A DNA stretch of 42,903 nt from a virus. The stretch is from positions 1 through 42,903 of the IMG/VR virus record IMGVR_UViG_3300032132_000742; one strand, written 5' to 3'. Below the pieces are notes generated by a model. That model saw only the letters and a list, made by a program, of their open reading frames with translations, was not told the origin of the DNA and searched no databases. Below, in pieces: positions 21,877 through 24,989 of this stretch; position 1 is the stretch's first letter, and every line of letters begins with the position of its first letter. A program made the translations under genes and the position numbers.

Positions 21877-22419
21877 ATGGCGCAGAAACCGCAGAAACCA
21901 GCCAAGCCCAAGCCGGGCAACCAGGATGCACCCCAGCCAGCGAAGTCCGTAGCGACCAGCGCGGCCGGGGCGGCGGCACCGAAGGCCGCCGCCCCGATGG
22001 CGGTGCCTGCTGCGGATCCCGGCGCGCAGCTCGTGTCGGTGTCGGAGAACCTGGCGCTCGCCGCCGAGGCGCTGCGCGAGGGCATGGAGCGTGCCGACTA
22101 TACGCGGGCCACAATGGCCACCGCGAACCTCGACGCGGCGAAGGTGAATGCCGAAGCGGCGAAGTCGCTCCGCGAGGGGATCACGGCGCTGGCCGCCGGT
22201 GTCACCCAGCTCGCGGCTTTGACGGCGGCGGCGCAGGCGCAAGGCGACGCCGGCGGCGTCGACACGCTGGCTCGGACCGGGATCACGGCGCTCAAGCCGA
22301 TCCTGGGCGCGCTGCCTTCCGGGTTCCTGAAGGGCAACGTGGAAAACCACCGCGAGATCTTCAACAAGGTCTGCCGCCGCATCGACGGCGTGCGGACGGA
22401 GATGGACGATGCTGCCTGA
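21877..22419 (+). CDS. Ala-rich hypothetical head-module protein
   Basis: 180 residues: a Lys/Pro/Ala-rich N-terminal 50 residues, a long helix (LVSVSENLALAAEALREGME, AAKSLREGITALAAGVTQLA) likely to form a coiled coil, and a compact C-terminus (FLKGNVENHREIFNKVCRRI). Located between the Bbp19-like and scaffold genes. Perhaps a structural or assembly protein. It overlaps the scaffold gene by 11 nt. Confidence 0.6.
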   Translation: MAQKPQKPAKPKPGNQDAPQPAKSVATSAAGAAAPKAAAPMAVPAADPGAQLVSVSENLALAAEALREGMERADYTRATMATANLDAAKVNAEAAKSLREGITALAAGVTQLAALTAAAQAQGDAGGVDTLARTGITALKPILGALPSGFLKGNVENHREIFNKVCRRIDGVRTEMDDAA

Positions 22420-23290
22420 AGATCCTAATCCGAGCCCCGAACCAAATCCCGATCCGAACCCGGATCCAAACCCTGATCCCAATCCGAGCCCAGATCCCTC
22501 ACCGGCCCCGAACGGTTGGTCGTCCGGTCTCTCCGACGACGATCGCGCCCTGGCGGAAATCAAAGGCTGGGACACGCCTGAAAAGGTCATCGGCTCCTAC
22601 CGCGATCTGGAGGGCAAGCTCGGCGCCGACAAGGTTGTGGTGCCCGGCAAGGACGCCGACGACGCCGCGATCGCCGACTTCCACAAGCAAATAGGCGTGC
22701 CCGACGATCACGCCACCTACACCTTTGCCGAGGCCGAAGGTCGCCAGGCCAACGAGCAGGACAAGGCCTTCCAGGAGACCATGCGTCCGCTGCTCGCCAA
22801 GGCCGGCGTGACGCAGCGTGGGCTCGACGTGCTGACCGAAGGCTTCAACGGTTTCACGGGGCAGCTCGCCCAAGAGGCGCAGACCGCCGATGCCGATTTC
22901 GTCAAGGCTTCCGAGGCGGCGCTCCGCAACGAATGGCCGGGCGGCGACTACGACAAGAACACCGACATGGCCAACCGCGCCATGCGCCACTTCGCCGGCA
23001 AAGATCTCGCCTCCGAGCTCGCCCAGGTCGAGATGAAGTCCGGGCGCTTCCTGATGGATGATCCGCGCATGTTGCGTCTCTTCGCCAAGGTCGGCCAGTC
23101 GATCTCCGAGGACGGCGTGTTGCCGGCCGGTATTGGTGCCGACTTCCAGTCGCCGACCGCGATCAAGGCCGAGATTACGCGCCTTCGTGCGAACGAGGCC
23201 TACAGCAAAGAAAATCACCCCGAGCACAAGGCGATCACCGAGAAGGTCGCCCAGCTTTACGAATTGCTGCCCGAGGAGGGCGGCGACTAA
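22409..23290 (+). CDS. Capsid scaffolding protein
   Basis: 293 residues, directly before the major capsid gene. The N-terminus contains an NPDPNP-type repeat (about 6-30) encoded with varied synonymous codons. The middle has LAEIKGWDTPEKVIGSYRDL, GVPDDHATYTF and a long acidic helix, which is the standard layout of podovirus scaffold proteins (DLPGKYTF-like elements). The C-terminal region is charged (ENHPEHKAITEKVAQLYELL). It would guide prohead assembly and then leave. The N-terminal repeats look like a spacer, rarely seen in such proteins. Confidence 0.85.
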   Translation: MLPEDPNPSPEPNPDPNPDPNPDPNPSPDPSPAPNGWSSGLSDDDRALAEIKGWDTPEKVIGSYRDLEGKLGADKVVVPGKDADDAAIADFHKQIGVPDDHATYTFAEAEGRQANEQDKAFQETMRPLLAKAGVTQRGLDVLTEGFNGFTGQLAQEAQTADADFVKASEAALRNEWPGGDYDKNTDMANRAMRHFAGKDLASELAQVEMKSGRFLMDDPRMLRLFAKVGQSISEDGVLPAGIGADFQSPTAIKAEITRLRANEAYSKENHPEHKAITEKVAQLYELLPEEGGD

Positions 23291-23303
23291 TCCCGCCGTG
23301 GTT

Positions 23304-23342
23304 GTCGGGGCCGGGTAACCGGATTGCCGGTCCGGCCCCGAC
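23304..23342 (+). repeat. Hairpin H1 after scaffold gene
   Basis: GTCGGGGCCGG (23304-23314) and CCGGCCCCGAC (23332-23342) form a perfect 11-bp stem with a 17-nt loop that contains a smaller CCGG/CCGG pairing. It is followed by CACCAAAAAGGAG, not a U-run. It punctuates the scaffold-capsid boundary and may be a processing or stability element. Confidence 0.65.
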
Positions 23343-23360
23343 ACCAAAAAGGAGACCTTG

Positions 23361-23502
23361 AACCCGGATAAGGCCGCGAAAGCAGCCCCCGGTTGACAGC
23401 GGGAAAGACCGCCGCCGATGAGGCCGGGCGTGACCGGCCAGGAAGGGTCCGGAGACCGGGCAACCCTCCCGCAGATGCACCGCAAAGCAACTGATAGGAG
23501 GG
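23361..23502 (+). ncRNA. Structured leader of the major capsid gene, with possible SD masking
   Basis: The 218 bp between scaffold and capsid genes contain no gene. After H1 come: an AACCCGG/CCGGTT helix (23361-23367 with 23389-23394) enclosing a GGC-GC stem with a GAAA tetraloop (23372-23387); GCGG-GAAAGA-CCGC (23399-23412); GGCCGG-GCGTGA-CCGGCC (23422-23439); and GGGT(CCGG-AGA-CCGG)GCA-ACCC (23445-23466). Finally CCCTCC (23464-23469) can pair with the capsid ribosome binding site GGAGGG (23497-23502). The last two helices share 23464-23466, so they are mutually exclusive. This may control capsid translation. Confidence 0.55.
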
Positions 23503-23508
23503 CAGAAA

Positions 23509-24387
23509 ATGTCCGCAGAAGTCCCCAAGAATTTCGCAGCGAAGTTCAAAGACGACTGGATCATGCTGGTCCAGCAGCGCGGCCCCAAGCTGCGCGGTAC
23601 CGTTCGCGAAAACCCCGACATGCTCGAAGGCAAGCTCGGATATTTCGACCGCATCGGCTCGGTCGCCTCGAAGAAGAAGACCACGCGGCATGGCGACACG
23701 CCGATCATCAACACGCCGCATTCCAGGCGCCGCATCATCCGCGACGTCTTCCAGATCGCCGACATGATCGACCGGTCCGACGTGCGGCGTATGATGAAGA
23801 ACCCGCAGAACCGCTACGTCACGAACTTCCGCTGGGCGTTCGGGCGGGATTTCGACGACGCGGTGATTTCCGCTGCCAACGGCACGGCGTTCTCGATCGA
23901 CGAAGACGACACCGCGGCATCGGTCGCGTTGCCGGCAGCGCAGAAAGTCGCGGCGGCCGCGACGGGTCTGACCAAGCCGAAGATCCTCGACACCTATCAG
24001 AAGTTCGTCGAGGCCGATGTCGATGTCGAGAATGAGAAGCTCTATTGGGCGGCTGGTCCGCAACAGTGGACCGATCTCCTCGGCATCACCGAGGTCATCT
24101 CCGCCGATTTCGTGTCCGCTAAGGCGCTCGAAAATCCGCGCGAGATCAAATTCATGGGCTTCCACTGGATCCCCTCGACGCGGCTTCTCACCGATGGCAG
24201 CGGCGACCGCCTCAACCTCGCCTGGGCGGAGACGGGGATCGGCGTCGCCGCCGACATGGATCCCTTCGTCGATGTCGGGCCTCGCCGCGACAAGCAGTCG
24301 AACACGCAGATCTACATGGAGTGGGAGATCGGCGCGACGCGGGTCGAGGACGAGAAGGTCGTCGAGATCGCCTGCGTGGAACCCTGA
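23509..24387 (+). CDS. Major capsid protein
   Basis: 292 residues, of the podoviral capsid type (Phage_capsid_2-like): MSAEVPKNFAAKFKDDWIML, VQQRGPKLRGTVRENPDMLE, RYVTNFRWAFGRDFDDAVIS and KFMGFHWIPSTRLL. It should form the icosahedral shell. GGAGGG lies 6 nt before ATG 23509. The surrounding hairpins and the folded leader suggest that its RNA level and translation are set separately from neighbouring genes, as expected for the most abundant virion protein. Confidence 0.9.
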   Translation: MSAEVPKNFAAKFKDDWIMLVQQRGPKLRGTVRENPDMLEGKLGYFDRIGSVASKKKTTRHGDTPIINTPHSRRRIIRDVFQIADMIDRSDVRRMMKNPQNRYVTNFRWAFGRDFDDAVISAANGTAFSIDEDDTAASVALPAAQKVAAAATGLTKPKILDTYQKFVEADVDVENEKLYWAAGPQQWTDLLGITEVISADFVSAKALENPREIKFMGFHWIPSTRLLTDGSGDRLNLAWAETGIGVAADMDPFVDVGPRRDKQSNTQIYMEWEIGATRVEDEKVVEIACVEP

Positions 24388-24414
24388 TCCGGGGCTGACC
24401 AAACCGTGAGCTGA

Positions 24415-24454
24415 CCGGGGCGCCCGAGTGCACGCCGTGCACAGGGCGCCCCGG
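24415..24454 (+). repeat. Hairpin H2 after capsid gene, with GTGCAC palindrome in the loop
   Basis: CCGGGGCGCCC (24415-24425) and GGGCGCCCCGG (24444-24454) form a perfect 11-bp stem around an 18-nt loop. The loop holds the 15-bp GTGCAC palindrome, so a second hairpin can form inside. It lies 27 nt after the capsid stop. It could mark RNA processing, transcript attenuation or stability. Confidence 0.65.
24428..24442. repeat. Dispersed 15-bp palindrome, copy 3
   Basis: GTGCACGCCGTGCAC (the opposite-centre version of copies 1 and 2), in non-coding DNA between the capsid gene and its neighbour, inside the loop of hairpin H2. Confidence 0.6.
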
Positions 24455-24482
24455 ACCGAACCGAAACTGAAGGAGACGAACG

Positions 24483-24989
24483 ATGGCAGTAGCCAACACC
24501 AAAGCGACGGTGGTCTCGAACCGCGATGCGAGCCCCGCCAAAATGAACCCGGTACACCTCGAAGGTGGCCGGCTCCGCGAAATTGTCGGCGTGGCCGAAG
24601 TCGCCGCGGCCGACGATGATGATTCCGTCTATCGGCTGGGCGCGGTCCATTCGTCCTGGCGGATCTCCGACATCCTGATCGCCAACGACGCGATCACCCT
24701 TGGCACCGTCTACAATCTCGGCCTTCACGAAACGGCGGAGAATGGGGGCGCGGCGAAGGACGACAATTTCTTCGCCTCGGCCGTCGATCTGAGCTCGGCC
24801 GCCGCTTTTCGCAGCCTGCTCTACGAAGCCACGGCGGCGAATATCGACAAGGCGGAGATGAAGCTCTGGGAGTTGCTGGGCGAAAGCGCGGATCCCAATC
24901 GCTTCTACGACGTCACGCTCACCGGCGCCACGGTGGGCACGGCGGCCGGCACGCTCGCCGCCCGCATCCAGTACAGCGACGGCACCTAA
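24483..24989 (+). CDS. Capsid-associated structural protein (possible decoration)
   Basis: 168 residues, ATG 24483 with GGAGACG about 6 nt upstream. Begins MAVANTKATVVSNRDASPAK and includes LGAVHSSWRISDILIANDAI and TLTGATVGTAAGTLAARIQY. It follows the capsid gene at its own hairpin-flanked position. Proteins in this slot in related podoviruses are virion structural or decoration proteins. No defined domain; the call rests on position and composition (beta-rich, acidic). Confidence 0.6.
   Translation: MAVANTKATVVSNRDASPAKMNPVHLEGGRLREIVGVAEVAAADDDDSVYRLGAVHSSWRISDILIANDAITLGTVYNLGLHETAENGGAAKDDNFFASAVDLSSAAAFRSLLYEATAANIDKAEMKLWELLGESADPNRFYDVTLTGATVGTAAGTLAARIQYSDGT

Follow-up and report, generated by a model that had tools for sequence, protein, structure and literature searches.

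How much capsid protein a tailed dsDNA phage makes in proportion to its scaffold and portal proteins is attributed for the most part to promoters, to terminators and to how strong the ribosome-binding sites are. Leaders that are bound by the product of their own gene are known from ribosomal-protein genes and, as the coat operator, from single-stranded RNA phages. The put RNA of phage HK022, a V-shaped pair of stems of about 70 nt with a triplex, acts on RNA polymerase in early operons, where it binds the beta' zinc-binding domain (PMC9378689).

Here we describe the leader of the major capsid gene on a viral record of 42,903 bases (IMG/VR virus IMGVR_UViG_3300032132_000742; G+C content 67%), which is taken over its full length and called the window below. 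Its head and tail genes are of the podovirus type. In our reading, to which we assign a probability of about 0.6, the leader is a conserved cis-acting RNA of the capsid gene that would control capsid translation. For phages akin to those that infect Pelagibacter and Vibrio, a conserved regulatory RNA at this place would be a new control point.

The capsid leader of the window and its relatives

The elements of the locus are listed in Table 1. As the first-pass annotation of the sequence had stated, 218 nt of noncoding DNA separate the assembly gene from the capsid gene. RNA of the region 23291-23530 is predicted to fold with -111 kcal/mol, compared with -91.6 ± 4.8 kcal/mol for dinucleotide shuffles (z = -4.0; 0 of 200 as good). 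This strong folding agrees with the row of stem-loops that had been proposed, but the row has an order of its own, as one module recurs in it three times (A1, A2 and B). That annotation had overlooked the repetition, the way in which the copies are coupled, and the additional copy A1. A1 is one of the two top-scoring matches in the whole window, while A2 occupies the place of module A in the relatives with which it was compared (L035, L038 and L146). The outer helix of A1 comprises 12 bp, and L015 carries tandem copies of module A, so the copy number varies.

Table 1. Elements of the capsid locus in the window
Element	Position	Strand	Sequence or assignment	Evidence
Upstream capsid-assembly gene	22409..23290	+	scaffold/protease-like	phrog_3742, E=2.7e-44; weaker, phrog_458 'protease', 1.6e-8; same position in relatives
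Module A1	23303..23343	+	TGTCGGGGCCGG-GTAA-CCGG(ATTG)CCGG-T-CCGGCCCCGACA; strand-swapped, extra 5' copy	descriptor scan
Module A2	23364..23392	+	CCGG-ATAA-GGC(CGCGAAAGCA)GCC-C-CCGG; strand-swapped	descriptor scan; position relative to the L035, L038 and L146 leaders
Hairpin M1	23399..23412	+	GCGG-GAAAGA-CCGC	read from the sequence; near-identical hairpin in L035 and L038
Hairpin M2	23422..23439	+	GGCCGG-GCGTGA-CCGGCC; loop consensus GCGUNA	R2 match 23422-23470; helix covaries
Module B	23444..23467	+	AGGG-T-CCGG(AGA)CCGG-GCAA-CCCT	descriptor; R2; covariation
Anti-SD	23464..23469	+	CCCTCC; overlaps the 3' strand of the module B outer helix	duplex with SD region, -13.5 kcal/mol
Shine-Dalgarno sequence of the capsid gene (SD)	23497..23502	+	GGAGGG	sequence; six nt before ATG
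Major capsid gene	23509..24387	+	PF19821 Phage_capsid_2	Pfam E=2.7e-59; phrog_3437 major head protein, 1.3e-70

Neither a nucleotide search of phage records with the region of the window nor single-sequence searches of viral and genome contigs with the capsid protein gave any match. A capsid-protein search yielded 75 phage records, among them phages of Pelagibacter, Vibrio, Yersinia and Alteromonas and Manatee Spring phages, and a profile search found hundreds of IMG/VR contigs with a related capsid. Where the upstream sequence reached far enough, nearly all relatives had about 90-300 nt between assembly and capsid gene, a few having more, and the relatives carrying a long leader at the same place range from 33 to 67% in G+C content. 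A long leader here is common to the capsid lineage, and the idea that it is a block recently inserted into the window phage between an older SD and the gene is not supported. Many of the relatives L002, L006, L009, L010 and L016-L022 have a small frame of 55-84 aa that fills part of the gap; few or no modules are recognisable in their leaders.

A leader peptide had also been suggested. The 12-codon TTG frame after GGAG is present (23358-23396), where it overlaps module A2, but it is not conserved: only L035 among 13 relatives has a similar frame. We rejected the leader peptide because the SD-preceded 12-codon TTG frame is confined to the window and L035 among 14 leaders.

A conserved module with matched bulges

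When the leaders are read side by side, a hairpin module is seen to recur in them whose internal loop is asymmetric: 5'-GG-RNWR-N-3' lies opposite 5'-N-Y-CC-3'. In many phages the strands of one copy are swapped with respect to the other. The GG/CC pairs are in the inner helix of both copies in the AT-rich clade. In the clade of the window it is the outer helix of the first copy that carries GG/CC, this copy being strand-swapped. The order of conserved secondary structure is module A, hairpins M1 and M2, module B and then the SD; the loop of M2, GCGUNA, is followed by (C)AAGG.

Because the descriptor of this module had been written after inspection of the first leaders, it was frozen and then run on 42 leaders fetched later, where it found 44 modules against 2.7 ± 1.5 in shuffles. 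Over 82 nonredundant leaders it found 104 modules (6.6 ± 2.6 in shuffles), and 37 leaders had at least two of them (0.4 in shuffles). In 499 kb a covariance model built from nine AT-rich leaders (R1) matched 33 leaders and gave no other hit. Of the 23 pairs in the alignment of these leaders 17 showed double changes, and the covariation score was 0.485 compared with 0.165 after shuffling and at most 0.091 when the partner strand was slid. R1 did not reach the GC-rich clade, and R2 was therefore built, comprising M2 and module B, from four GC-rich leaders with the window excluded. In a search of 349 kb it matched the window at M2 and module B with E=3.8e-4; when the window alone was scanned without filters, this match had E=4.7e-5 and the next one E=1.1. 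The R2 alignment of 17 leaders, which was fitted to the structure and so favours covariation somewhat, and in which a few of the lowest-scoring rows may be chance matches, had double changes in 10 of 13 pairs and a covariation of 0.529 (0.163 shuffled). The paired segments are kept in the relatives, with strong covariation in both alignments. From these comparisons it is almost certain that the window leader belongs to a conserved family of structured RNAs in front of capsid genes. Strong hairpins are common at 67% G+C, but folding by chance and without function is hardly credible in view of the covariation, the conserved position over 33-67% G+C, the shuffle controls and the independent set of leaders.

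Searches of whole records with R1 gave a single copy per record in seven records, with no other match in them. To keep the capsid gene out of the selection, the whole of IMG/VR was searched with two sequence patterns; all 63 matches (63/63) lay directly before a capsid gene of the PF19821 family. The AT-rich module pattern, the one that was also searched in bacterial and archaeal genome contigs, had no match there.

The family was previously uncatalogued. No Rfam 15 family reached its gathering score in the window or in 15 relatives, and scans of the leaders alone at E<=10 gave weak matches far below the gathering scores. We found no description of the leader family in the literature; a 2017 survey of 224 candidate RNAs stood outside this comparison, many of its families presumably being contained in Rfam. 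Self-cleaving ribozyme models gave no match in the Rfam scans, and a hammerhead-like reading of CCGATGA...GAA was dropped because the core is unmatched. A group I intron remnant, considered for the AGACU/AGUCU hairpins of some pelagiphages, was likewise rejected, because the leaders are not long enough for one and conserve other helices.

While the core helices, GG/CC and a Y-R wobble are conserved across modules, the bulge of the internal loop varies (AUAA, ACAA, GUAG, GUUG, GCAA, GGAG and others). Among 148 modules the combination of the single Y with the first base of the bulge was C.A in 86, U.G in 46, U-A in 13 and C-G in 2. This is an exchange of the wobble type in which the standard C-G pair is avoided. 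The Y-R type changes about nine times on the capsid tree, and L112 and L114 are one such double change apart in module A. Since Y also correlates with the fourth bulge base, this register of the internal loop is tentative.

Of 40 leaders in which both modules were found, 25 have the same last three bulge bases in the two (7.8 by permutation), and so do 18 of the 26 leaders whose first module is strand-swapped (3.5 by permutation), although permutation does not fully take out common ancestry. Matched pairs include UUG/UUG (L012 and L013), CAG/CAG (L038), GAG/GAG (L069), GUG/GUG (L132) and UAG/UAG (L189, L201, L213 and the named phages phiVC8 and K300). The three bulges of the window, UAA, UAA and CAA, are alike but not identical. 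Simple duplication fails to explain the matching because the modules are strand-swapped. Bulges that match within a leader and drift between phages suggest that one partner reads both sites, most plausibly a phage protein with a drifting preference, and they offer a direct handle for finding it.

Predicted pairing with the Shine-Dalgarno sequence

The complementarity between the anti-SD and the SD, pointed out in the first-pass annotation, is exact, and the two are paired in the minimum-energy fold. The stem that was said to precede it is also there, GGG (23445-23447) pairing with CCC (23464-23466), but its fourth pair, T23448-A23463, is one of two registers, as G23460 is the other possible partner of T23448. 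The first bases of the anti-SD form the 3' strand of the module B outer helix, and the module B stem and the anti-SD/SD pairing therefore exclude each other. By nearest-neighbour energies, which leave out tertiary contacts, pseudoknots, ribosomes and co-transcriptional folding, the sealed state in predicted ensembles lies 4.5 kcal/mol below the module B state in the window and roughly 3-12 kcal/mol lower in L013, L112, L114, L069, L076, L146 and L160. The SD is mostly sealed in the predicted ensembles of the window's clade; when module B is enforced, that of the window is unpaired about half of the time (0.49). In L096 and L098 a hairpin stands beside the SD rather than over it.

In the clade of the window it is the bases after the module B bulge that can pair with the SD, and the pairing changes between relatives: it is CCCUCC/GGAGGG in the window and L076, CUCUCCGA/UCGGAGAG in L112, UCCUUC/GGAGGA in L146 and GCCCUUC/GGAGGGC in L069. 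Within the clade of the window the leaders' own duplexes had a mean of -13.1 kcal/mol, compared with -9.3 kcal/mol for exchanged ones (0 of 10000 permutations as good), and in the L160 clade the values were -10.2 and -8.8 kcal/mol (p = 0.0025). No such specificity was found in the AT-rich clade (p = 0.75), in which the modules are present and the anti-SD is absent. Sealing of the SD is thus not the universal function of the family. The two-state switch that had been proposed is supported as regards the folded, conserved leader and the bases shared by the anti-SD and the preceding stem. It has comparative support in two clades, but would be a use of the wider element that is confined to some lineages.

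In the window, where the mutually exclusive sealing of the SD probably works as translational control, the mechanism might be as follows. With the outer helix of module B formed, CCCT would be held by AGGG and the SD could be free; with this helix open, CCCTCC would pair with GGAGGG and initiation would be blocked. Because the sealed state is the lower one in energy, translation would be raised by a binder that stabilises module B. This binder would more likely be a phage protein that co-evolves and touches both sites than an invariant small molecule, since the bulge sequence common to the two modules drifts from phage to phage. Such a protein is the likeliest trigger of the leader, though we propose it tentatively; the capsid or the assembly protein would be natural candidates.

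Two other readings must be weighed here. In the window sequence the SD is predicted to be sequestered by a helix that excludes an upstream conserved helix, with clade-specific complementarity, as in translational riboswitches. Modules A and B might then be a small-molecule aptamer and the anti-SD its expression platform; the overlap of an aptamer-like helix, anti-SD and SD is as expected, and the loop GCGUNA and the AAGG between the modules are conserved. We consider a riboswitch unlikely, however, because a small-molecule pocket would not be expected to vary as this internal loop does, in step within one leader, because the capsid gene is the only gene found downstream and because no Rfam riboswitch matched. 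Somewhat less unlikely, but still doubtful, is an element without a ligand, in which the module would be a rigid structural motif and the fold would stabilise the mRNA or set a fixed or kinetically timed rate of translation. It would account for modules being kept in clades without an anti-SD, and where a promoter precedes the first module the fold would be the 5' end of the mRNA. The matched, drifting bulges nevertheless suggest recognition by a partner.

Transcription signals and comparison with known RNAs

A sigma70-like promoter was found just upstream of the first module in 24 of 78 leaders at q<=0.1 (about 8 expected), at a median distance of 9.5 nt. It is clearest in phiVC8 and K300 and weak in the window (q = 0.17). 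The record of Vibrio phage phiVC8 (L247) carries its depositors' annotation of a putative promoter and terminator at positions 518-630; the two modules, GAGG-GTAG-CGGA...TCCG-T-CCTC and GAG-T-CCG...CGG-GTAG-CTC, are found in this region, preceded by a sigma70 promoter that is nearly perfect. A search of 22400-24500 of the window for plus-strand terminator-like sites (a GC-rich hairpin with a U-run) found none. In L076 a hairpin resembling an intrinsic terminator, with a T run (GCCCCCATGGGGGCTTTTTT), lies at about 2966-2990 between the anti-SD and the SD of the capsid leader, which might mean that transcription is controlled at this point as well.

The position of two hairpins close behind a promoter, as in phiVC8, K300, L013, L096 and others, might suggest an antitermination RNA that acts on RNA polymerase after a late promoter, as HK022 put does in early operons; putL likewise lies just downstream of its own promoter (PMC9378689). 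We regard this as most improbable. The leaders, whose architecture was compared by reading, show no V-shaped pair of stems with a triplex, and both the strand-swapping and the coupling to the SD would be left unexplained.

Control of capsid translation is the reading we prefer. More speculatively, these leaders might represent a new class of regulatory RNA, in which a phage structural protein would recognise a co-evolving, strand-swappable module, present twice per capsid leader, and so set capsid translation, which in some lineages it would do by freeing a sealed ribosome-binding site.

Among described RNAs, HK022 put (PMC9378689) shares with these leaders the two hairpins soon after a phage promoter but differs in its described architecture, and coupling to an SD is no part of it. 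The manA and wcaG motifs of marine phages (PMC2864571) are also structured 5' leaders found by comparison; they precede metabolic, exopolysaccharide and photosynthesis genes, however, and the Rfam models of known motifs are unmatched here. Like translational riboswitches that sequester the SD, the present 5' leader has an upstream helix exclusive with an anti-SD/SD helix, but its loop drifts in step in two copies, it occurs only before a phage capsid gene and it matches no Rfam family. With autogenous leaders it shares the small hairpin whose loop is asymmetric, and the position of this hairpin close to the start of a gene for an abundant ribonucleoprotein or capsid component. The leaders described here, known from sequence alone, differ in that the hairpin occurs in two copies, with swapped strand order, and in dsDNA phages.
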